This document shows, in pieces, positions 16,210-34,761 of a stretch of 64,000 nucleotides of DNA. A program made the position numbers and the translations under genes. Location of the stretch: the NCBI GenBank assembly GCA_019241645.1, contig JAFAWQ010000047.1, positions 1-64,000 of the forward strand, given 5' to 3'. The notes under the pieces are model-generated. The model had not been told where the DNA came from, did not search any database, and saw only the letters and a list, made by a program, of their open reading frames with translations. The DNA comes from Alphaproteobacteria bacterium (GTDB lineage: Bacteria > Pseudomonadota > Alphaproteobacteria > Micropepsales > Micropepsaceae). Within the stretch, counting starts at the first letter, position 1; the number at the start of each line of letters is the position of its first letter.

Positions 16210-19200
16210 GTTCAAACTCACGGCTGCTCGTCAGGCTTTCCACCAGACGAGAAAGCCCCCGCAGTGGAATGTCGATCCAGTCCGGGCGGTTGGCGCTCTC
16301 ATAACTGACCTCGTATGCTGCTTTCTCGATACCGAACGCGGTAATCAACCTCTCTTCCTGCTCCGTCAGTGGCCCGTCGCGGCCTTCCGCATATCCTGCG
16401 AGGAACGCGCTCCGGGCGGCGCGGCGAAAATCGTCCAGCAATGCATCGGCGCGCGCATGCCCCGGTCCCGCAGCAGCCAGTTGCCCCTCTCGTTCGACGA
16501 TTCCAGCCGCGTAGTCGAACGAGCGAATCATGCCGGCGACATCGCGCATCGGCGACATCTTGGCGCGGCGCTCCTTCAGCGACTTGAGGGGTTCGCCTTC
16601 GAAATCGATGATGACGACGTCGGTACCGGCAACCAGCACTTGGCCAAGATGGAAGTCGCCATGGATACGTGTTTGCGCGGCGCCGCCGCTGTTGACCAGC
16701 AGTGCGCGGAGTTGCCGTCTGATGTCTTCGCGCTTTGACAGAAGATCGGACACCATTTCCGTCTGTGCGCCGGCATATCCTTCCAGACTTTGAAAGGCCT
16801 GATCGAGCTGCGCATCCGCCTGCCGCAGCCAGAGCTGCAAAGTCTGCTCGTCCGCTTTACCCGGCGCGAAATCAGGATTATCGGTGGGCCGGCCCAGCAC
16901 GGCGTGCATCTCTCCGGTACGCCGGCCCAGCACGCGCGCAAAAGCTTCGTATGCTTCGAAGGGATTCCGGTCCCGAGGCGCGATAGACTGCTCATCCACA
17001 ATGCGGGTGAGCATTTCCTTCGTCCATGCGCTGCCGTCGCCCTGATTGGTGACGAAGCTCTGCACAATGCCAACGGCGGCGTTAGCGCCTTCCGCGTCGC
17101 GGCTCGTAACTTCGCCTAGCATTGGGGCAATGCCGGAGAACCCTCGCTCGGTCAGCATCCGGGTCATTTCCACTTCGGGATGAATGCCGCGTGTCACGCG
17201 CCGGAACAGTTTGATGACCGCCTTTCGCCCGACGATGCAGGAAGAATTGCTTTGCTCCGCGCGTGGCCATTCGATCTCAGCGTTCCTGAGTTGCTCGAGA
17301 TCCGTACCGGGCATCGCGCGAAACTCAAGTTCGCCCCGGCCGAACGGCACGCGGGTGTTCTGCGCGATGTTGACTAGGACGGAGCGCGCGAACCGGGCAG
17401 AGGCGAAGCCATCGGTGAGAAGCCCGACTCGCCGTCCCCGCCGCACGCGTGCAAATGCCAGCGGAACCTCGAAGGGACAAGGTTCTTCGTCTTCCCAGGC
17501 GATCGAGATCGGAAACGCATAATGATTGGTGTTTTGTCCGGCGGTCACTTCCACAGCCGCGAGCACTGCATCGTTCTCATGTCCGGGAAGTGGCGCCATT
17601 GCGGCGACTCTTACCCTGGAGATTTTGGCGTTCTTTCCCTGAAACCAGCGCCGCTGCGCGATGTAGGACGGAAGGATGTCGGTCTCCAAGACCTCACGGT
17701 TTTCGCTGTTCAGCGCCTCGAGAAGCATGCCGCGCAGCACGAACGTACGGGGTTCGGTCATCGGCCCGGATATGGCCGTGCTCCACTGCGGTGGCTTCGC
17801 CGTTTCGCTGAGGAGGAACCAGTAGAATCCATAGGGCGGCAGGCTCAGCAAATAAGTGAGCTGCCCGACGAGCGGAAACGGCGAGCCACCCAGCAATTCG
17901 ACCGGCGTACGACCCGCGAACTCATGCAGATCCAGTTCCACCGCCTGCGCCGCCCGTGAGACGTTCACCACGCAGAGTATCGCATCGCCGTCATGCTCCC
18001 GCAGGTAGGCCAGCACCTTGCGGTTCTGCGGCGCAAGGAAGCGAATGGCGCCACGGCCGAAGGCCTTATGCTTGCCGCGCACGACAAGCATGCGCCGCAA
18101 CCAGTTCAGCAAGGAGTGGGGATCGCGCCACTGCGCCTCCACATTGATGGCCTGATAGCCGTAAAGCGGGTCCATGATCGGCGGCAGCACGAGCACCGCG
18201 GGATCGGCGCGTGAAAATCCACCGTTGCGGTCCGATGACCATTGCATCGGGGTGCGCACGCCGTCGCGGTCGCCGAGATGGATATTGTCGCCCATCCCGA
18301 TTTCGTCGCCATAATAGATGATCGGCGTTCCCGGCATGGTAAGCAGCAGCGAGTTCATCAACTCGACGCGGCGGCGGTCTCGCTCGAGCAGTGGCGCAAG
18401 CCGCCGCCGAATGCCAAGATTGAGCCGCGCGCGCCGGTCGGCGGCGTACACGTCCCAGAGATAGTCGCGTTCCTTGTCGGTTACCATTTCCAGCGTGAGC
18501 TCGTCGTGGTTGCGCAGGAAAATCGCCCACTGGCATTTCGGCGGCGGATCGGGCGTCTGCCGGATGATATCCGTGATCGGGAAGCGGTCTTCCTGCGCCA
18601 GCGCCATGTACATGCGCGGCATCAGCGGGAAGTTGAACACCATGTGGCACTCATCGCCTTCGCCGGCGCCGAAATAGGCCTGGATGTCCTCCGGCCACTG
18701 ATTGGCTTCGGCGAGCAGCATGCGGTCCGCGTAATGCTCGTCGATGAATTTGCGCATCCGCTTCAGGACGGCATGAGTCTCCGGCAGGTTCTCGTTGTTG
18801 GTGCAATCGCGCTCGACAAGATACGGCACGGCGTCGAGCCGCAGGCCGTCCACCCCCATATCCAACCAGAAGCGCATCACGCTCATGACGGCGCGAAACA
18901 CCTGCGGGTTGTCGAAATTCAAGTCTGGCTGGTGCGAGTAAAAGCGATGCCAGTAGTAGGCTTTGGCTTCCTCATCCCACGTCCAGTTCGACTTCTCGGT
19001 GTCGAGAAAGATGATGCGGGTGCCGGGATATTTTTTGTCGTCATCGGACCAGACGTAATAATTTCGGTAATTCGAATCGGGCTTGGCGCGCCGCGCGCGC
19101 TGGAACCAGGGATGCTGATCGGAAGTGTGATTGATCACCAGTTCGGTGATCACGCGGATGCCGCGCGCATGTGCCTCGTCGATGAAGTGCCGCACATCGG

Positions 19201-19468
19201 CGAGCGTGCCGTATTCCGGATGGACGTCGCGATATTCGGCGATATCGTATCCGTCGTCGCGGCGCGGGCTGGGATAGAACGGAAGCAGCCAAATGGCGGT
19301 GACGCCGAGTTCCGCGATGTAGTCCAGCTTGTCGATCAATCCCGGAAAATCGCCGACGCCGTCGCCGTTCGAATCGGCGAACGACTTGATGTGCACCTGA
19401 TAAATGACAGCATCCTTGTACCAAAGCGGATCCGGCTTGAGCGTGGACTTCTTGCTGCGCGGCGCCAT
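16199..19468 (-). CDS. treS: Trehalose synthase fused to maltokinase
   Basis: 1089 residues. Residues 1 to about 560 are TreS (GH13_16), interconverting trehalose and maltose: [40 protein letters not shown] and [11 protein letters not shown]. Residues about 600-1089 are a maltokinase (Pep2/Mak) with an aminoglycoside-kinase-like core: [17 protein letters not shown] at its start and [20 protein letters not shown] with DFEGEP as the catalytic and metal loops. The fused protein converts trehalose through maltose to maltose-1-phosphate, the GlgE substrate. TreS-Mak fusions are known in many bacteria. Its ATG shares a base with the glgE stop (TGATG). Confidence 0.95.
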
Positions 19469-22400
19469 CAGACTTCCCGGGCGGACTGCACGCGCCAGAT
19501 TGCGTACGGCATCTCGGGCGTAAGCCGCATGTGCTGGATTTTTCCGCGCCAGATCGAATGCCCGCCGCGCAGCAGGTCTTCGCATTCCAGCGCCTCGTGA
19601 TCCGCGCGGCCCCATTCCCACAACGGAATCTCGAAATCGGCTTCCTGCGGGTTGTGCGGATCGAGGCTGATGGCGACGAGAACGCGATCGTCATGACCAG
19701 GCGCTGTCTTGCCGAAATAGAGAATGTTGTCGTTGAAGGCGTTGTAGAAACTGATGCCCAGATGGGATTGCAGCGCCGGGTGCGCCTTGCGCAAACGGTT
19801 GAACTGGGCGATTTCCGCAATGATATTTCCAGGCGCGTTCCAGTCGCGGACCTTGATCTCGTATTTTTCCGAGTCGAGATATTCTTCCTTGCCGGGAAGC
19901 GGCGCGGATTCGCAAATCTCGTAACCCGAATACATGCCCCACAGGCCTGACAAGGTTGCCGCTAGCGCAGCGCGGATAAGAAATCCCGCGCGCCCCGAGG
20001 CCTGCAGGAAGTGCGGATTGATGTCCGGCGTGTTGACAAAGAAATGCGGCCGGAAAAAATTCGCGACCGGCTCGGTCGTCAGTTCCGTCATGTACTCCAT
20101 GATCTCGCGCTTGTTGTTGCGCCAGATGAAGTAGGTGTAGGATTGCGAGAAGCCGAGCTTGGCCAGGTGATACATGATCTTCGGCCGGGTGAACGCCTCC
20201 GAAAGGAAGATGACGTCCGGATGCTGGCCGCGGATATCAGCGATCAGCCACTGCCAGAATGGGAATGGTTTGGTGTGTGGATTGTCGACGCGGAAAATTT
20301 TGACGCCGTGCCCGATCCAGAACAGCACCACATCACGCAGCGCCAGCCACAAATCCGGCAAGGCGTCGCGCGCATAGAAATCCACATTGACGATGTCCTC
20401 GTATTTCTTCGGCGGATTCTCCGCGTACTTGATCGTGCCATCCGGACGCCAGTCGAACCAGCCTGGATGCTCTTTCAACCACGGATGATCCGGCGATGCC
20501 TGCACGGCGAAGTCGAGCGCGATCTCCAGTCCGTGCTCGTGTGCGACGGCGACCAGCTTCCGGAAATCCTGGATTGTTCCCAGCTGGGGATGAATTGCAT
20601 CATGCCCGCCCGCTTCCGAGCCGATCGCATAGACGCTGCCCGGATCGGCCGCTTCCGCCTTCAATGAATTGTTGCGGCCTTTGCGATTGGTTTTACCCAC
20701 GGGATGAATGGGCGGGAAATAGAGAACATCGAAGCCCATGTCGCGAATGGCGGGCAGACGCTTCATGACATCGCGAAACGTCCCGTGGCGCGCAGACTTC
20801 CGGCTCTCGGATCGGGGAAAGAGTTCATACCAGCTGGAGAACTGCGCCTGCAGACGCTCCACGTCGATGACATAGGTCTTGCTGCGGGCCTTGAAGCGGC
20901 ACGGGTCGGCGCGACGCATCATCTCGACGGTTTCTGGCGCAATTAAGAGCGCCGCACGATCGTTCGCGCAAAGCGCATCGAACCCGCGCAGGATCGCGGC
21001 GAGCCCCCGCTTCTCCACGCCGCCCGATTGCTGCGCGGCATCCTGCAGCATCTGCTGGCCCTCGCGAAGTTCCAGCGTGAGATCGAGACCGGCATCGCGT
21101 TTGCGATGGAGATCGCGCAGGAAAGTGCCGTAGCGATCGATCCCCGCCTCCACCGCAAATTCGTGCCGCCCGATGCGCTCTGGTGGCACCACCGCGCTCC
21201 AGCGGTCATTCGAGTGAAGCTGCATTCGCACGCGCTTCCACCCGTCTTCGTCCTCGGCGCGGACATGGACCTCCGCCGCAATCACCGGGTGGCCGTCGGT
21301 GAAAATGTCGGCGGCGATCGCGATCTGTTCGCCAACCACCGCTTTGGCTGCGAACGCGCCATCGTCCACAGCAGGGGACACATTGGCGATGACGACGCGC
21401 GGAGAGTCAGTCGCGGAACCGACGCTTCGCCGTGCGTCGTCGCTCCGGGAGATGACCACCGGCGCGCGCCGGGCGCGAAACACACGCACTTCGCCCGGCC
21501 TCAATCTGCTTCCCTCACCTGTGAATGGCGGCACAGCCTCAAGCCGGTTGAAAGAGCCCAGCCGGCTGAGAAGGTCCTGGCTGGGCTCCACGGCCACAAT
21601 CGGATTGGGATTTACGAGTGCGACGAGCGCTTCTTCGGAAAGGCGCATGTCTGGAGCTTTCGCGCGCAATAGAATGGTCAGCGGCGCTCCTGGCCCCGTC
21701 AGCGATTGCAGCTGGCCGTTGACCCACCGCGTTTCGCAAACGAAGGCGTTCGCGGCGCGTATTGCGGCATCGAGATCGACCGAGTCCCCCTCCGATTCCG
21801 GTTTGGCATAGTTGAGCGGCATCATGATGCCGGTGCCTGTGACGGCAGCCAGCGCAAGGCGGCCGCAACGTTGACGCGACGAGGCGGGCGGGAGTTTCGC
21901 GGAAGATTCGACCTGTGCGATCATCGGCGCCACCCTCGAAAGCGCTTCATACTCTTCGATCAGCCAAGCCGCGCGCCCGTCCCACCAGGGAAGAGAAGAC
22001 AGGGTGAAATCGAAACCGGTCAGCGATGACGCGCGATTCCGCTGCTCGCCTGTCGTATCGGCGATGAACGTCACGCGGTTGGGACCATTATGCGCGGCAG
22101 TGTCCATCAGCGCTTCGCGCACCACGGGCGGGGTCGAACTCGGATGGAGCAGGCGGACGCCACGAACGCCGGCAGTCAACCAGCCCGCAAGTTGCTCTGA
22201 CCACCATGCAACAAGGGGGCCGGCCGCTTGCGAGGGCCGCAAATAAGCGCGGCCCTTTCCCGGGCCGGGATGGCGCGGATCAACCACTTCACCCGGTTCG
22301 CCAGTGCGTCGAATTGCGAAGCTTTCGGGATACCGGGCAACCACCGGGTGACGCAGATCCAGCTCAGCGACGTTCAAATCGATAAACAGAGACAGTCCAC

Positions 22401-22557
22401 GGCTGCCGCATGCCCGCGCCAGCGCGGCGTCGACCCGTTCGCCACTGCTTTCGATAAGGATCGTGTCGAAGCCGAGCCGTTGGACCCGTTCAAGGATCTG
22501 CGATGTTTCGCCGGCCAGTTCAGGGCATCCGATATGGCAGATTCTTAAGGCAGACAT
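19468..22557 (-). CDS. glgE: GlgE maltosyltransferase with long N-terminal extension
   Basis: 1029 residues; a typical GlgE is about 650-700. The C-terminal part, about residues 375-1029, is GlgE: alpha-1,4-glucan:maltose-1-phosphate maltosyltransferase, which extends glucan by maltose units. Motifs there include LYFPPIHPVGKTNRKGRNN, FRVDNPHTKPFPFW with the Asp nucleophile, FLSEAFTRPKIMY, and an N-terminal beta-sandwich region from about 385. The first 370 residues resemble a decayed alpha-amylase barrel: VQRLGFDTILI and LFIDLNVAELDLRHPVVARY line up with region I, but GVRGVRLLHPSS and FIADTTG lack the Asp and Glu expected in regions II and III. First gene of the operon; AGG-type ribosome binding site just upstream. 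Confidence 0.92.
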   Translation of the reverse strand: MSALRICHIGCPELAGETSQILERVQRLGFDTILIESSGERVDAALARACGSRGLSLFIDLNVAELDLRHPVVARYPESFAIRRTGEPGEVVDPRHPGPGKGRAYLRPSQAAGPLVAWWSEQLAGWLTAGVRGVRLLHPSSTPPVVREALMDTAAHNGPNRVTFIADTTGEQRNRASSLTGFDFTLSSLPWWDGRAAWLIEEYEALSRVAPMIAQVESSAKLPPASSRQRCGRLALAAVTGTGIMMPLNYAKPESEGDSVDLDAAIRAANAFVCETRWVNGQLQSLTGPGAPLTILLRAKAPDMRLSEEALVALVNPNPIVAVEPSQDLLSRLGSFNRLEAVPPFTGEGSRLRPGEVRVFRARRAPVVISRSDDARRSVGSATDSPRVVIANVSPAVDDGAFAAKAVVGEQIAIAADIFTDGHPVIAAEVHVRAEDEDGWKRVRMQLHSNDRWSAVVPPERIGRHEFAVEAGIDRYGTFLRDLHRKRDAGLDLTLELREGQQMLQDAAQQSGGVEKRGLAAILRGFDALCANDRAALLIAPETVEMMRRADPCRFKARSKTYVIDVERLQAQFSSWYELFPRSESRKSARHGTFRDVMKRLPAIRDMGFDVLYFPPIHPVGKTNRKGRNNSLKAEAADPGSVYAIGSEAGGHDAIHPQLGTIQDFRKLVAVAHEHGLEIALDFAVQASPDHPWLKEHPGWFDWRPDGTIKYAENPPKKYEDIVNVDFYARDALPDLWLALRDVVLFWIGHGVKIFRVDNPHTKPFPFWQWLIADIRGQHPDVIFLSEAFTRPKIMYHLAKLGFSQSYTYFIWRNNKREIMEYMTELTTEPVANFFRPHFFVNTPDINPHFLQASGRAGFLIRAALAATLSGLWGMYSGYEICESAPLPGKEEYLDSEKYEIKVRDWNAPGNIIAEIAQFNRLRKAHPALQSHLGISFYNAFNDNILYFGKTAPGHDDRVLVAISLDPHNPQEADFEIPLWEWGRADHEALECEDLLRGGHSIWRGKIQHMRLTPEMPYAIWRVQSAREV

Positions 22558-23285: not shown

Positions 23286-24917
23286 CTACCGCGACGTGGC
23301 GTTTTGGTTTCCCTTTAATCCGCCAAGCGTGACGCCGCTGCATTCCTGGCGGTCTTGTCGGTTGCGGGCTGAGTAGGCTTCCGTTGAAAAATCCCGGCGG
23401 GGCAACAGTGCCAGCGCGATCAGCGCCGGAACGAACAGCGCCGCCATGAGAAACCAGCCCTCGTTGAGCGATTGCGCGAAAGCGGCGCGCTGCACCATCG
23501 GCGCAATCATGTGTTTGAGCGTCTCACCGATCGGTCCCATGGCATGGCCGTGAAACATCGCGGTGGGCAGTCCCACCGCGGCAGCTGCATCGGCGTCGCC
23601 GGCCTGCAACCTTTCAATCAGCCGCGAGGCATGGCCGGCGGTGCGCTGCTGTAGAATGGTGTCCACCAGCGCGATGCCGATGGCGCCGCCGAGGTTTCGG
23701 AGGAGATTGAACTGGGCGCTTGCATCTGACCGGTCCCACTGCGGCCAACCCTCCATGGCAAGACGGGTCGAAGGAATGATGCAGAACATGATTCCGGCGC
23801 CCCGCAAAATCTGCGGGACCACCAGCCCTGCGAAATCCGTATGGATTGTGCAAAAGCCGTCGGCAACCAGACCGGCGGCGAACATCGTGTAGCCAAGAGC
23901 CGCCATGGCACGGCCGCTGATGCGGCATTCCAGCAAGGCTGCGACCGGGGCCGAAACGAGCTGCGCCAGCCCAGCGACGATCATGATTTCGCCGATCTCG
24001 AGCGCCGTATGCTTGCGGACGAAGCCCAGGAACAGCGGGAGCAGATACACAGACCCGAATAGCCCTATGCCAAGAATGAAGCTTAAGAAACATGCCGCCG
24101 AGAAGCCGCGATCCTTGTACCGGCGCAATTCCAGAAACGGACGGCGCCGTGTCAGGCATTGATGCACGGCCAGCGCGAACGAGACCGGGCAAACAATCAG
24201 CAGAGTGTTCACGAACGGTCCGGTCCAGTGGCGGTGCGGCGCTTCCTTCAGCAGCAGTTCGAGACTGGCCAGGAAGACGGCGGCGAGAAGGACGGTGAGG
24301 AAATCGATGTCGGTGAGCGCTCGGAGGTTGGCCCGGCCGCTGGGAACAAGAACCGCCACCATGCCGCCGAACAGCGCGCCCGGAATCACATTGACCAAAA
24401 AGATGGCGTGCCAGCTGTACGTCTGGGTGAGGAAGCCGCCGAACGCGGGCCCCACGGTCGGCGCGATCATGGCGAATGTGCCGGCGATTACGGTGGCCAG
24501 CGTATGCAGGCGCCGCGGAAACAGCTCGAAGATCGCGGTAAAGACGGCCGGGATAAGCGCGCCGCCGAAAAACCCCTGCACGGTGCGGAACGCGACGAGT
24601 TCGGCAAAGTTGGTGCTCATTGCGCAGCCGATGCTCGCCAACGTGAAGGCGAAGGTGGCGCCGGCGAAAAGCCAGCGCACGGTTAGCGCGCGCGTCATGA
24701 ATCCCGTCAGCGGTATGCCGACAATCTCCGCCATCAAATAGCTTGTCTGAATCCAGCTGAGCCGGTCCTGCGAAATATTCAGCGCTGCGCCGATGTTGGG
24801 GAACGAACTCGCCACCACCTGGATGTCGAGGATCGCCATGAACATGCCGATGCACATGGCGATAAAGCCAAGCCAGGTAAGAATGCTAACCGGCTGTTCC
24901 TCCGAAGGAGGAGTCAC
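23286..24917 (-). CDS. DHA2 (14-TM) MFS efflux transporter, EmrB/QacA-like
   Basis: 543 residues from GTG 24917, with about 14 membrane segments. It starts with FIAMCIGMFMAILDIQVV, where the D in transmembrane segment 1 is the DHA2/EmrB motif, followed by LSWIQTSYLMAEI and the motif-A/C-like GFFGGALIPAVF. DHA2 proteins are proton-driven exporters of amphipathic molecules. It is the last gene of the type III polyketide synthase operon and starts on a GTGA overlap with the AlkB-like gene. An export role for the operon's product is therefore a reasonable inference. No EmrA-type adaptor is next to it. An open extension upstream lies within the AlkB-like gene and was rejected. Confidence 0.88.
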   Translation of the reverse strand: MTPPSEEQPVSILTWLGFIAMCIGMFMAILDIQVVASSFPNIGAALNISQDRLSWIQTSYLMAEIVGIPLTGFMTRALTVRWLFAGATFAFTLASIGCAMSTNFAELVAFRTVQGFFGGALIPAVFTAIFELFPRRLHTLATVIAGTFAMIAPTVGPAFGGFLTQTYSWHAIFLVNVIPGALFGGMVAVLVPSGRANLRALTDIDFLTVLLAAVFLASLELLLKEAPHRHWTGPFVNTLLIVCPVSFALAVHQCLTRRRPFLELRRYKDRGFSAACFLSFILGIGLFGSVYLLPLFLGFVRKHTALEIGEIMIVAGLAQLVSAPVAALLECRISGRAMAALGYTMFAAGLVADGFCTIHTDFAGLVVPQILRGAGIMFCIIPSTRLAMEGWPQWDRSDASAQFNLLRNLGGAIGIALVDTILQQRTAGHASRLIERLQAGDADAAAAVGLPTAMFHGHAMGPIGETLKHMIAPMVQRAAFAQSLNEGWFLMAALFVPALIALALLPRRDFSTEAYSARNRQDRQECSGVTLGGLKGNQNATSR

Positions 24918-25969
24918 GAGACTGCAGCGACGCGCCGAACGTCCATGTTGCAGGCGCAATCGCCGGAAAGGGTCGAAATGTTGGCGAGCCGGCGATGCAT
25001 GACACGACGCCATAGTGGGGGAATCAGCGCCAGCATGATGGCCCCTGCGTATCCGCCAGGCAACTCCGGCGCAGCCGCCGTAAGACGCAATCCTTCATAG
25101 GGCATTGCCGGTGCGCGATGGTGATGACTGTGCCGACCCATGTTGAAAAGCAGTAGATTGGCTGCACCGGAACAATTCCAGCTGAATTGGTCGCCCATGG
25201 GTTCCCGGGGACCGCGCAGCATGCCGTAATGCGCCACGTAATTGAACAGCTCGAGCACAATTATGGCGACAGCACTCTCGGCCGCCAGGAACGCCATCGC
25301 ACGTGCCGCGCAAAAAACATAGACAGCGATGTAAAGCAAAGCCGTAATTGCGATATCCTGGAACACGCGATTGCGAACGATCGAAACGGCCGCGTTTCGG
25401 GCCCGGTGCTGTTCAAATCGCCAAGCATAGACTACCTGCCAAACCAGCGTGCGCCACAAGAACGCGTAGAAGCTTTCGCCGTAGCGCGCAGTCGAAGGGT
25501 CACGCAAGGTCGCTACGAAGCGATGATGCCCGTAAATATGCGCTAAACGGAAGTGGCGATAGCTCATTCCGGTCAGCATGAGCGCGCCAAGCCAGCGCTG
25601 CCATGCGCCACGGCTATGCACCATTTCGTGCGCGGCCAGCGCGCCGAACACACCGGTGCAGACGCCGGTTGCAGCGGCGAGACCGACAAACCCAAAGGTG
25701 CTCGCATCCTGGAACGCCACCTCAAACAGCGCCCAAAGGATCGCCATCAATTGAAGTGGAATGTAGAGCGCCGGTAGCAACCGCTCCGCTGCAACCTCGC
25801 CGGCGCCAACATCGGAATAAGGGATTTCGTGCGCGATCAGCAGCGACAGAAGCAGCGCCGGTACGAGCGCCGAGGGTGCGAAACTCGATAGTCTGTAGAG
25901 CAAAGGGACTGACGCAAGGAACACGAAAGGTCCGGCAAACCGCAGCTGTGTCTGTGCAAGAATCGTCAC
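24914..25969 (-). CDS. AlkB-type diiron membrane monooxygenase
   Basis: 351 residues, multi-spanning. The alkane-monooxygenase histidine boxes are present in order: HEMVHS, HIYGHHRFVATLRDPS, NYVAHYGMLRGP and RHSHHHRAPAMPYEGLR. These bind the two irons of membrane hydroxylases and desaturases. AlkB inserts oxygen at terminal or subterminal carbons. The position in a polyketide synthase operon rather than an alkane regulon suggests hydroxylation of a long-chain phenolic or pyrone product; that substrate is inferred. The start is GTG, overlapping the methyltransferase stop as GTGA. No rubredoxin gene is nearby, so electrons would come from elsewhere. Plain alkane hydroxylase remains possible. 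Confidence 0.88.
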   Translation of the reverse strand: MTILAQTQLRFAGPFVFLASVPLLYRLSSFAPSALVPALLLSLLIAHEIPYSDVGAGEVAAERLLPALYIPLQLMAILWALFEVAFQDASTFGFVGLAAATGVCTGVFGALAAHEMVHSRGAWQRWLGALMLTGMSYRHFRLAHIYGHHRFVATLRDPSTARYGESFYAFLWRTLVWQVVYAWRFEQHRARNAAVSIVRNRVFQDIAITALLYIAVYVFCAARAMAFLAAESAVAIIVLELFNYVAHYGMLRGPREPMGDQFSWNCSGAANLLLFNMGRHSHHHRAPAMPYEGLRLTAAAPELPGGYAGAIMLALIPPLWRRVMHRRLANISTLSGDCACNMDVRRVAAVS

Positions 25970-26463
25970 AGCGCGCGACGCGATGCCAACCCGCGCTCCT
26001 CCTCGCGAATGCGCCAGAACAGCAGCAACGCGTTCAAAAGCGAAAACGCTGCCGCGACCCGGACTTCACCGAACACCAATGGCAACACTGCAATCTCGCC
26101 AGTGACCACAATGTAATTCGGGTGCCGCACGAAACGGTAGGGTCCTCGCCGAACCAGCGGCGCACCTTCCACCGTGATGATCCGCGTCGTCCAGTATGGA
26201 CCGAGCGACAACATCGTCCAGACGCGACCAACTTCCAGCACGACATAACCGGCCAGCGGCAGCCAGTAGAGGGGTGTGGGATGCGGCAGCGCCGTGGCGA
26301 TTGTCACCAGCCATGCGCCGTGAAGAATGACGAACAACGGATAGTGTTCGCGGCCAATCTCCACGCCGCCCCGCGTCAGCAGCGCGCGCGTGTTGCGCTC
26401 GGCATACACGAGCTCGCCCAGGCGCTGAATGACAACCAGCGCAAGAATGAGGTACGCGCTCAC
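25966..26463 (-). CDS. Isoprenylcysteine carboxyl methyltransferase-like membrane enzyme
   Basis: 165 residues, about four to five membrane segments. The C-terminal half has the ICMT/phospholipid-methyltransferase signature: LVRRGPYRFVRHPNYIVVTG, then the E-rich end RIREEERGL, which forms the SAM pocket in this family. The GTG start overlaps the polyketide synthase stop as GTGA. In actinobacterial and other phenolic-lipid operons an ICMT-like enzyme next to a type III synthase O-methylates the alkylresorcinol (for example SrsB of Streptomyces griseus); the same role is likely here. Confidence 0.87.
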   Translation of the reverse strand: MSAYLILALVVIQRLGELVYAERNTRALLTRGGVEIGREHYPLFVILHGAWLVTIATALPHPTPLYWLPLAGYVVLEVGRVWTMLSLGPYWTTRIITVEGAPLVRRGPYRFVRHPNYIVVTGEIAVLPLVFGEVRVAAAFSLLNALLLFWRIREEERGLASRRAL

Positions 26464-27503
26464 GCACCTTCCAGCATCAGAAAAGCGGCGGAGAATCCAG
26501 GGCCCAGCGCGCTCATTAGCGTGCGGCCCACCACTCCGCGGCTCCGCATCCGGTTCAACACGAAGAGAGCGGTCACCGCGGACATGTTGCCGTAGTCGCG
26601 CAACACCGCCCGGCTGTCCTCCAATGCGCCTGTGGCGAGGTCCAGCGAAGCCTCAAGTGCATCCAGTACCTTGGCGCCGCCAGGATGACAGGCAAAGCCT
26701 TCTATACTGTCCAGCGGAATATCGTTCTTGCGCAAAAAACCGGCCGCGATAGCGCGGAAGTCGCTCGCCACCAGAGAGGGGATGCTTTGCGCGAAGAGCG
26801 CCTTCAGCCCGTCTTCCTCCACTTCCCAACCCATGACATCCAGCGAATTGGGCCATGTGTAACCTCCGTTTGCGCCAAATTCCGGCCCTGTGCCGGAGGT
26901 CGAGATAATCGCTCCTGCTGCCCCATCACCGAACAAAGCCGCCGCCACGATATTGCTCTTGGAGACATCGTCCTTGCGGAAGGTGAGCGCGCAGAGCTCG
27001 ACAACGAGAAACAGAACACGCGAGCCGGGCATGGCGCGAGCAAGATCGGCGGCCCGTGCCAACCCCGAGACGCCGCCCGCACAGCCAAATCCGAAAATCG
27101 GCAAGCGCGCCACATCGCGGCGCAGCATCATTCGCTCGATCAGCAGTGCATCGAGGCTGGGTGTCGCGATGCCCGTGGTGGAGGCAATCACCACCACGTC
27201 GATGTCCTCCTTCTCGAGACCGGCTTCCGCCAGGCAGTCCAGAGTCACCTTTTCCAGAAGATCGACTGCATTCTTCAGATAGAGCTCGGTCCGTTCCTTC
27301 CAGCCATGGGCCCGCGTGTACCAATCGATCGGCACGCAGGAATACCGCGTGTCTATGCCTGTATTGTCGAACACCGCGAGGAGGCGGAGGATCTCCGGAT
27401 GCTCCTCGAAAAGAATGGCCGCACGGCGCCCAGCCTCGCGCTGATCCACCGGATAGGGTGGAACCGCCGTCTTCAGGGCGTTGAGGCGCGGTTGTCCGGG
27501 CAT
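26460..27503 (-). CDS. Type III polyketide synthase (alkylresorcinol/alkylpyrone synthase-like)
   Basis: 347 residues from ATG 27503, with GGAG a few bases upstream. The thiolase-fold catalytic triad is intact: Cys in FGFGCAGGVSG, His in FACHPGGAKV and Asn in LRDYGNMSAVTALFV. C-terminal GPGFSAAFLMLEG is typical of the chalcone synthase superfamily. Such bacterial enzymes condense a fatty acyl starter with malonyl-CoA to make alkylresorcinols or alkylpyrones. It is the first gene of the four-gene operon with the methyltransferase, AlkB-type oxygenase and exporter. Chain length and product cannot be read from the sequence. Confidence 0.93.
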   Translation of the reverse strand: MPGQPRLNALKTAVPPYPVDQREAGRRAAILFEEHPEILRLLAVFDNTGIDTRYSCVPIDWYTRAHGWKERTELYLKNAVDLLEKVTLDCLAEAGLEKEDIDVVVIASTTGIATPSLDALLIERMMLRRDVARLPIFGFGCAGGVSGLARAADLARAMPGSRVLFLVVELCALTFRKDDVSKSNIVAAALFGDGAAGAIISTSGTGPEFGANGGYTWPNSLDVMGWEVEEDGLKALFAQSIPSLVASDFRAIAAGFLRKNDIPLDSIEGFACHPGGAKVLDALEASLDLATGALEDSRAVLRDYGNMSAVTALFVLNRMRSRGVVGRTLMSALGPGFSAAFLMLEGA

Positions 27504-27529
27504 GCTCTCCTGCTTCCCGCGTGGCAAAC

Positions 27530-27555
27530 GACGCGAGTTCGCAATGCGTTATTCC
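27530..27555 (-). promoter_or_regulatory. ECF-type promoter candidate of the polyketide operon
   Basis: On the minus strand GGAATAA (27555-27549), 15 bases, then CGTC (27533-27530), 26 bases before the polyketide synthase ATG. The same GGAATAA-N15-CGTC pattern is found exactly upstream of the ECF sigma gene (54687-54712) and divergently beside it (54754-54779), which suggests a shared sigma factor. It differs from the EcfG -35 GGAAC. Confidence 0.6.
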
Positions 27556-27615
27556 ATGAAGACTTTTGGAACGCTAATCTGAACCGGCACTGAACCCCGG
27601 ATCAGGATCACTCAA

Positions 27616-32986: not shown

Positions 32987-34118
32987 CTACTTGGAAGGGG
33001 CGCCGCCAAGCAAATCGGCCAGATATTTCTGCCAAACGGCCCCCCAGGTGTGAGTGCCGTGGCCATGAGTTTGGTCGCTGACAGGAATAAGAACGAAGCG
33101 GCCTTTCTTCAGGCGCTTCGCTTCGCGTTCCGCAATGCCAAGCTCCGGCGGGTTGATGAAGTCGTCCGCCGAATTGATCCACATCACACGGGCCTCGATC
33201 TTCTCAAGCGCGCCGCTCGGATCGTAATCGCGCGATGCATCCACCTGGTAAAGCATATCGTTGGCGTCGAGCGATGCCACATCTTTTGCCACGGTATCGA
33301 CGACATATTTGTCCGCCGCATCGCGGGTCGGATAGCTCTTCTGCATCTGGTGCGGTGCGCACCGCGATGATGAGCAAATCGGCGGCGGCGCGCAGTGCCA
33401 TTTGCGGTTCGCTCTTGTATTCGCCCCCCTCCCAGGCCGGATCGCTGTGGATCGCATCCATCAGCATCTTGCGCCACATGCGATTGCGGCCGGCGATCTG
33501 CACCGGCAGGCAGGCGAGCGGCATCAGCGCGTCCATGTAGCCGGGCCAAGTCTCGCCCCAGACGAACGCATGCATGCACCCCATCGAGGTGCCCATCAGC
33601 AGGCGCAGATGATTGACATGCAGGTGCTGTGTAAGCAGCGCGTGTTGCGCCGCGACCATGTCGCCGTAATCGTAATGGGGAAAGCGCGCGTGCAGGCCGT
33701 CGCTGGGCTTCGAGGATTTCCCGTGGCCGATGCCATCCGGGAGGATGACGAAATACTTCGCGGGATCGAGCAATCCGCCGGGCTTGAACAGCACATCGGC
33801 GAACTGCGGGCGCAGGAATTGGTGACCGTCTCCGCCAGTGCCATGCAATACGACAACGGCGTTTGTCGTGCGCCCCTGCGCATCCAACTGAGGCGCACCC
33901 AGCGTGATGTAGTGCAAATGAAGCTCGGGTAGACTCTCGCCGGAGTGGAATCTGAAATTCCGGATGGTGAAGTCGCTGACCTTTGTCTCGTAGGCAGCCG
34001 CCTGTCCCGCTACGGCACAGCCAAGCATGACTAGCCCCGCGGCGAATTTTGCAGTGTTGCGCCAGCCCCGTCCCCCGTAGGGAATTCGCAAGGCATCGAC
34101 TGGTAAAATGCCGAACAT
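32987..34118 (-). pseudogene. Alpha/beta hydrolase (MetX-like fold), broken by a frameshift
   Basis: Two overlapping frames encode one protein. The first (from 34118) has a signal peptide ending GQAAA, then DFTIRNFRFHSGESLPELH, VVLHGTGGDGHQFL and the nucleophile elbow GTSMGCMHAFVWGE, up to LRAAADLLIIA. The second frame (from about 33365 down to 32987) continues with APHQMQKSYPTRDAADKYV, the acid region INSADDFINPPE and the catalytic His in DQTHGHGTHTW. The switch falls in a 14-base perfect palindrome, GCGGTGCGCACCGC at 33352-33365. It is either a real pseudogene or a one- or two-base assembly error. If intact it would be an exported homoserine-acetyltransferase-like hydrolase. Its ATG overlaps the divergent export gene's start. 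Confidence 0.8.
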
Positions 34119-34761
34119 GTATCGCTTCCTGACTGGCTTTTTCGCAGCCTGCGCATGCCTGCTGCTGTTGCCTATGTACGCGCTTGCCGAAGATGGCGGG
34201 CAGCTCCGTCCATCATCGGCAAGGAGCGTAGAGGAAGCTTACCAGCTGGGGACAGGCGACAAGGTGCGCGTGGCCGTTTTTGGCGAGCCGGACCTCGGTG
34301 GCGAATTCCAGGTTGACGGCAAGGGTCGGATCGCAGTCCCCCTGATCGGAACGGTCCAGGCAGCCGGTGAAACGGCCGCCGGCCTTGAGCAGACGATCGC
34401 CGAGCAGCTCGCGGACGGCTATATCCAGAACCCGAGGGTCAGTGTCGAAATCACCACCTACCGGCCATTTTACGTGATCGGCGAGGTCAACAAACCAGGC
34501 GAGTACGCTTATGTGGATGGCATGAGCGCGCTCAACGCCATTGCCCTGGCGGGCGGATATGGCGATCGCGCAAATGAGGACACCATCTACATCCGCCGCA
34601 ACGGCAACCCCAGGGAAGAGCGCCTGCCGGCCGATCAGATGACTCGCATCTTCCCCGGTGACGTCGTCCGTATACCCAAGAGCGTGTTCTGGACGGTCAT
34701 GTCGGTCGTCAGCCCTGTTGCCGGTATCGGTGCACTTGGCTATTCCGCCGCCCGCTACTAG
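34108..34761 (+). CDS. Polysaccharide biosynthesis/export protein (Wza/SLBB type)
   Basis: 217 residues. A signal peptide (LTGFFAACACLLLLPMYALA) is followed by the Poly_export domain YQLGTGDKVRVAVFGEPDLG and then an SLBB-type strand set VEITTYRPFYVIGEVNKPGE and DGMSALNAIALAGGY. The family forms the outer-membrane channel or periplasmic part of capsule/EPS export. It is shorter than Wza and lacks a clear C-terminal amphipathic helix; it ends with a hydrophobic segment, so it may be the periplasmic subtype. ATG 34117 is an equally good start. No other capsule genes adjoin it. Confidence 0.87.
   Translation: MPNMYRFLTGFFAACACLLLLPMYALAEDGGQLRPSSARSVEEAYQLGTGDKVRVAVFGEPDLGGEFQVDGKGRIAVPLIGTVQAAGETAAGLEQTIAEQLADGYIQNPRVSVEITTYRPFYVIGEVNKPGEYAYVDGMSALNAIALAGGYGDRANEDTIYIRRNGNPREERLPADQMTRIFPGDVVRIPKSVFWTVMSVVSPVAGIGALGYSAARY

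Follow-up and report, generated by a model that had tools for sequence, protein, structure and literature searches.

A type III polyketide synthase operon of an alphaproteobacterium (Micropepsaceae) with an AlkB-like oxygenase gene between methyltransferase and exporter

Layout and proteins of the operon

In a 64,000-nucleotide stretch of DNA from an alphaproteobacterium of the family Micropepsaceae (positions 1 to 64,000 of contig JAFAWQ010000047.1, assembly GCA_019241645.1; hereafter the window), four abutting open reading frames (ORFs) run along the minus strand from 27503 to 23286 and encode, in this order, a type III polyketide synthase (PKS), an ICMT-family methyltransferase, an AlkB-like oxygenase, and a DHA2-family MFS exporter. 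The PKS gene (26460 to 27503) yields 347 amino acids from an ATG that by eye has an AGGAG-type Shine-Dalgarno (SD) sequence, and its product matches PF00195 and PF02797 above cut-off. Next come the genes for a membrane methyltransferase of 165 amino acids (25966 to 26463; PF04140, 96.7 bits, cut-off 24), for a membrane diiron-type oxygenase of AlkB fold and 351 amino acids (24914 to 25969; PF00487, 103.6 bits, above cut-off), whose histidine boxes read HEMVH, AHIYGHH, NYVAHYG, and RHSHHH, and for an EmrB-type exporter of 543 amino acids from a GTG (23286 to 24917; PF07690 above cut-off; TIGR00711, 348 bits, cut-off 230), for which a longer ORF is possible from an ATG at 25013. These assignments bear out the original prediction, made from the sequence of the window, of an srs-like core of PKS and ICMT-like methyltransferase joined by a diiron-type membrane oxygenase and an exporter.

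The prediction of a tightly coupled four-gene operon holds as well: each of the three junctions on the minus strand is a four-nucleotide GTGA stop/start overlap (26460-26463, 25966-25969, and 24914-24917). An SD-like GGAAGG lies before the methyltransferase start (26467-26472) and no clear SD sequence was seen by eye at the exporter start; SD sequences before the first two genes but none at the last fit translational coupling. Overlap at all three junctions was found in the window only, and the conserved junction among relatives is that between PKS and ICMT, where the four-nucleotide overlap recurs in 33 of 40 loci holding both genes (TTG starts allowed).

The PKS triad, also predicted, was found as C141/H273/N306, invariant in 30/30 aligned homologues, and with the chalcone/stilbene synthase domains it places the protein among the type III PKSs; W226, within an MGW motif, is invariant in the same 30. 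By sequence, the nearest solved structure is that of Mtb PKS11 (4jao). Trp281 of ArsB is described as a resorcinol determinant, but a reading of resorcinol versus pyrone from the ArsB Trp281/ArsC Gly284 position was abandoned: the 60 chains listed did not include ArsC, so W226 could not be aligned with it. The ICMT gene comes next after the PKS in 24/24 same-genus loci of the window's PKS clade (L031-L052, L054, and L060), as well as in L075, where only the end of the PKS is present, and the adjacent pair is that of an srs-type operon. Its product scores 24.1 bits, against a required 160, with the NCBIfam equivalog NF040696 and so does not qualify by this model as a true protein-S-isoprenylcysteine O-methyltransferase.

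Sequence searches of the PDB with the AlkB-like protein returned only two matches, the AlkB structures 8f6t and 8sbb, and its predicted model (pLDDT 77.2, pTM 0.82) likewise matched only these two in Foldseek at E values up to 0.001 (1.1e-13 and 4e-12, respectively); the next matches, at 2.7e-3 and 6.9e-3, were chloroplast motor-complex chains, with none further below 1. The nine metal-binding histidines are invariant in all 14 same-type copies aligned, and in these and in its predicted fold the protein agrees with the AlkB alkane monooxygenases. The expectation that all AlkB histidine boxes would be present is thus correct for the histidines but not for the acidic residues of the boxes: the canonical glutamates of EHxxGHH and NYxEHYG are alanine in both boxes in 14/14 rows, every operon copy having AHxxGHH (or AHxxxHH) in box 2 and NYxAHYG in box 3, and in box 4 of the window protein a histidine replaces the aspartate of RHSDHH. 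Both glutamates are kept by four canonical-type rows (L073, L074, L076, and L077). Among seven stand-alone copies of the same variant, two have serine in box 2 and six keep the box-4 aspartate, versus one of 13 operon or split copies (Fisher p 0.0012, which is not a fair probability because the rows are related). Neither this count nor the AlkB tree described below includes the broken copies (L049, L075), L095 with its 30% identity, or the named duplicates of genome loci.

Distribution within the genus and beyond

The PKS was searched against 120 relatives and its own genome, a set that includes 69 genomes of the genus (G000-G068); the window (G000:C11) belongs to a 2.87-Mb assembly that is 99.67% complete. 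The PKS clade is present in 26 of the 69, in 25 at 60% identity or above and in G038 as a PKS end at a contig end, and an ICMT homologue and an MFS exporter accompany it in 26/26. An intact AlkB gene lies between these two in 12 genomes (G000, G011, G013, G014, G022, G028, G029, G035, G041, G046, G054, and G066); the G066 copy carries a flagged stop but was counted as intact, as the match extends past both ends of an open 340-residue frame. The other 14 have the PKS-ICMT-MFS order without an intact AlkB in between. In two of them the gene is broken in place, in G064 into pieces in two frames with loss of a box-4 histidine (L049 5032-5546) and in G038 into a fragment with an internal stop (L075 4718-5134), while the genes for the exporter, the ICMT, and the PKS (only its end in L075) are kept. 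In two more it is located elsewhere (on a 3.5-kb contig in G049, unlinked in G052), and in ten it is absent (G009, G023, G025, G034, G053, G057, G060, G062, G063, and G067). Errors in draft assemblies could explain the broken copies and the G049 case. The survey for the same four-gene order that had been proposed was thus positive within the genus, and chance adjacency is ruled out by this synteny, with AlkB in the order in 12 of the 26 genomes, the window's included, and the order without it in the rest. Seven loci read from another PKS clade in the genus (45-49% identity; L061-L066 and L070) have ICMT in six cases, MFS in five, and AlkB in none.

On a PKS tree of 31 rows, AlkB carriers fall into several groups, requiring at least four changes, two of them forced by starred branches. 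Presence of AlkB is nevertheless clustered on this tree, with four changes versus a mean of 9.8 on shuffling and 0 of 500 shuffles as low. The AlkB tree recovers the groups L037-L040 and L034-L036/L043/L044, joins the window loosely with L031, and places L033 at its base; many branches are weakly supported. The simplest reading is that AlkB is old in the operon and was repeatedly lost in place, which the two broken copies help, and repeated gain is the less simple alternative. The ratio of nonsynonymous to synonymous substitution rates in two pairs is 0.19 and 0.35 for AlkB, and 0.15 and 0.23 for the PKS in the same pairs; both genes are under purifying selection.

Nine loci from other families of the class (L053, L055-L059, and L067-L069) all pair PKS with ICMT, with MFS next in one and AlkB in none. 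On pRPC2 of Rhizobium sp. BG4, PKS (45.6% identical), ICMT, and DHA2 genes are adjacent with overlapping ends, and in Phyllobacterium sp. 628 annotated features of the same three families all touch the ICMT match; the window has AlkB in addition, and none is among the features listed for the BG4 locus. Other plasmid records hold PKS-ICMT-SDR (Azospirillum ramasamyi), PKS-ICMT (Phyllobacterium zundukense), PKS-ICMT with a divergent DHA2 gene (Sphingomonas parapaucimobilis), or a PKS followed by a hypothetical gene (Marinovum algicola). When a genome collection was scanned for the pattern of the operon AlkBs, 19 loci came up: eight with the whole four-gene order, two with a broken AlkB in that order, and nine lacking a PKS, of which one lies on a 3.5-kb contig. 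When 289 genomes of the class were searched with a profile, 27 had an AlkB-family match at E values up to 1e-30, and in the 30 of 35 places examined, with 1.5-kb flanks, ICMT and PKS lay alongside only in two, both of this genus. As far as sampled, then, the complete four-gene arrangement occurs only in this genus, and the recurrence of PKS-ICMT-DHA2 in Rhizobium suggests that AlkB contributes an optional tailoring step to an already known core.

That core has known counterparts. The srsABC operon of Streptomyces griseus and the pkq operon of Mycobacterium smegmatis likewise unite a type III PKS, a methyltransferase, and an oxidative enzyme, and lead to methylated polyketides and quinones; however, their oxidative gene encodes a hydroxylase or oxidoreductase where the window has a membrane AlkB-fold protein, and the accessible text names no exporter for them, whereas one is part of the window operon (PMC5916927, PMC9927152). 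A P450 gene near a mycobacterial cluster is mentioned (PMC5916927), and a 2021 survey of cyanobacterial clusters gives srsC as the only stand-alone hydroxylase gene known besides its own case (PMC8086630). The hierridin operon hidABC and the planctomycete alkylresorcinol operons also combine PKS, methyltransferase, and oxidoreductase but come from other phyla and differ in gene order, and their oxidoreductase is not specified there as AlkB-like (PMC10896814). Characterized alphaproteobacterial type III PKSs, like that of the window, are RpsA of Rhodospirillum centenum, which forms alkyl-dimethylpyrones and resorcylic acids, and RePKS of Rhizobium etli, which forms pyrones and can start from acetyl-CoA, both from enzyme studies without operon context (PMC6274091). 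The type III PKS on R. etli p42d (43.8% identical; possibly the same protein as RePKS) is unlike that of the window in having no ICMT annotated beside it. The AlkB of Fontimonas thermophila (8f6t, 8sbb) shares fold and nine histidines with the window protein, which differs from it in the alanines of boxes 2 and 3, the lost box-4 aspartate, the lack of a genomic rubredoxin, and the polyketide operon setting. Among the matches listed in the literature searched, which covered few subscription papers, none was seen to describe an AlkB-type gene as part of a type III PKS operon; the words alkane hydroxylase and alkylresorcinol both occur in one review (PMC12857756). The PKS-methyltransferase core is no novelty, and public annotation already shows the PKS-ICMT-DHA2 trio; the putative AlkB-type tailoring gene within such an operon appears to be new as far as that literature goes.

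Upstream region and neighboring genes

The intergenic stretch before the PKS gene (27504 to 27615) is likely the promoter region and is divergent, with a gene for a Cys/Met-metabolism pyridoxal phosphate (PLP) enzyme starting on its far side (from ORFs and Pfam); a simple scan gave no sigma-70-type match within it. Six relatives (G022, G028, G029, G046, G049, and G066) have LuxR-type genes upstream of the PKS, as judged by clustering and, for two G046 genes, by Pfam. LuxI-type genes lie there in the same six, with PF00765 matches in G022, G028, G029, and G046 and by clustering in G049 and G066; a G066 copy and the G046 one match TraI models below cut-off. The PF00765 search, which covered G000-G041 of the genus and gave no match in 14 control genomes, found no LuxI-type gene in the window genome, so the quorum lead does not carry over to the window. 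A dyad scan for a lux box before the PKS gave nothing shared.

In the loci with Lux genes (L032, L034, L035, L036, L043, and L044), a PhyH-type dioxygenase gene is present in four and a quinone-oxidoreductase-like gene in five, by clustering, with Pfam for the L035 copies only. Near or next to the exporter gene, three loci carry a penicillin-amidase-type gene (L032 828-2936, L037 924-3026, and L039 965-3070, by clustering, with PF01804 scanned for L039), a family that we take to include acyl-homoserine lactone acylases. A cyclopropane-fatty-acid-synthase-type gene lies near the exporter in ten loci, mostly tail to tail (e.g., L048 7534-8706, where PF02353 was scanned), and is followed in some by a flavin amine oxidase gene. 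In the window, positions 17003-22557 hold an amylase-family gene that also encodes a maltokinase cap (PF00128, PF18085) beside a 1029-residue ORF (19468-22557) that presumably encodes a GlgE-type maltosyltransferase, and a polysaccharide export gene (PF02563) lies at 34108-34761.

We also looked for PF01494, which we take to be the family of SrsC-type flavin hydroxylases. None of the four operon genes and none of nine scanned window neighbors (the ORF at 19468-22557 lay outside the scan) belongs to it. The window genome has six matches, of which the two listed sit on other contigs. At a distance of 5-22 kb from the PKS, at least 14 of 25 genomes carry a PF01494 flavin monooxygenase gene (the G060 and G054 matches being partial); one copy (L139 2043-3266) is an FAD-dependent oxidoreductase of PRK06185 type. 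Because this gene adjoins a dihydrolipoyl-dehydrogenase-type gene in six of eight regions read (one copy of each gene named), its linkage looks like general chromosomal synteny, and we did not retain it as part of the operon; it stays a lead for ring oxidation.

Proposed product and rival explanations

We consider it rather probable that the operon makes a polyketide lipid, an acyl-primed pyrone, resorcinol, or resorcylic acid that undergoes O-methylation and hydroxylation of an sp3 carbon and is exported. The gene set with its order and coupling, the intact catalytic residues, inheritance as a unit, and purifying selection are what the sequences themselves show. As we infer the chemistry and the order of its steps, the PKS would extend an acyl starter, most likely a fatty acyl one, with malonyl- and/or methylmalonyl-CoA and cyclize the chain, probably a long one, to an alkylpyrone, alkylresorcinol, or resorcylic acid; O-methylation of this product would fall to the ICMT-like enzyme, and the AlkB-like enzyme would hydroxylate an sp3 carbon at the tail or a ring methyl, drawing electrons from a donor other than rubredoxin that is encoded at another site in the genome, after which the DHA2 protein would export the product. 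This differs in two respects from the original prediction, by which AlkB took over the oxidation step of SrsC and the exporter was an addition to the hydroxylating pathway. AlkB-family enzymes are known to hydroxylate sp3 C-H bonds rather than aromatic rings, and together with the persistence of the operon in ten of 26 genomes that lack AlkB this makes it more likely that AlkB adds a different, optional oxidation. The exporter, found in every one of the 26 operons with or without AlkB and also in Rhizobium, is not optional, so export appears to be independent of hydroxylation.

Several observations weigh against this proposal. No member of the operon family has a known metabolite, and the acceptance of acetyl-CoA by RePKS makes a fatty starter less than certain. 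AlkB is dispensable, being absent in ten of the 26 genomes and broken in two more, and the same variant (A/S-H box 2, NYxAHYG box 3) occurs alone, without PKS, in other alphaproteobacteria at L072, L080, and L088-L092, two of which (L080 and L088) fall beside the window AlkB on the AlkB tree. The G049 AlkB (L071) stands beside L037-L040 on that tree, unlike its PKS on the PKS tree. Nor is the electron supply straightforward. Rubredoxin (PF00301), the partner expected of an alkane-oxidizing AlkB, is absent from the near-complete window genome, in a search positive in seven of 14 control genomes. Of 15 same-genus AlkB carriers, whose genomes are in some cases incomplete, 11 lack it and four have it. 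Among six genomes sampled whose AlkB homologues are more distant (G072, G077, G092, G097, G099, and G112), only one has it; with the other five lacking rubredoxin too, its absence is weak evidence. Candidate donors in the window genome are a 360-residue PF00970+Fer2 reductase (L103), a 112-residue Fer2 frame, and a third Fer2 match, but no donor common to the AlkB carriers was found, PF00970 being present in 8/15.

Alternatively, one could envision AlkB carrying out the ring oxidation itself, in the manner of SrsC, a flavin enzyme that acts alongside SrsB, which reportedly catalyzes decarboxylative methylation. The product would then be a methoxy-hydroquinone or quinone that perhaps carries electrons in the membrane, as the polyketide quinones of mycobacteria do. 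The AlkB gene does stand after those for PKS and methyltransferase, the place of the oxidoreductase in srs and pkq, as far as these are described in the accessible text; no flavin hydroxylase of PF01494 type was seen among the nine scanned neighbors (again with the ORF at 19468-22557 outside the scan); and the conserved W226 may occupy the position of ArsB Trp281, although the two could not be aligned. However, the sp3 C-H chemistry of the AlkB family, the operons that persist without the gene, and a conserved exporter that would seem ill-suited to a respiratory carrier make this unlikely.

The gene could also be a passenger, an alkane, fatty-acid, or terpenoid hydroxylase acting on unrelated substrates, as might be suggested by stand-alone homologues in Caulobacteraceae, Sphingomonas, and Rhodospirillales metagenome-assembled genomes, by the unlinked copy in G052, and by the repeated absence of AlkB. 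The confinement of the linkage to one genus in our samples fits the inheritance of one arrangement and is by itself no proof of joint function. Against this, AlkB keeps the same internal slot in 12 genomes over several branches of the PKS tree and is under purifying selection, and the window genome has this single AlkB homologue; we therefore give the passenger explanation little credence. That the enzyme is a desaturase or epoxidase of the alkyl tail and not a hydroxylase is very improbable, since, although PF00487 spans desaturases and hydroxylases, AlkB structures are the only matches at E values up to 0.001 by sequence and by fold and the histidines are spaced as in the AlkB rows used for comparison.

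Within the proposal of an exported, hydroxylated polyketide lipid, a more speculative possibility, which we offer tentatively and think doubtful as a whole, is that a branch of AlkB left alkane oxidation, lost its acidic second-shell residues, and came to work independently of rubredoxin as a hydroxylase tailoring exported lipids of type III polyketide origin, and that the product, under quorum control in part of the genus, may be a secreted signal or surfactant. Should AlkB act on the polyketide as proposed, type III polyketide pathways would gain a membrane diiron C-H hydroxylase, and AlkB would gain a biosynthetic role with another electron supply. The sister genomes with an intact, broken, or missing AlkB in the same slot constitute a natural experiment that could tie one gene to one mass shift.

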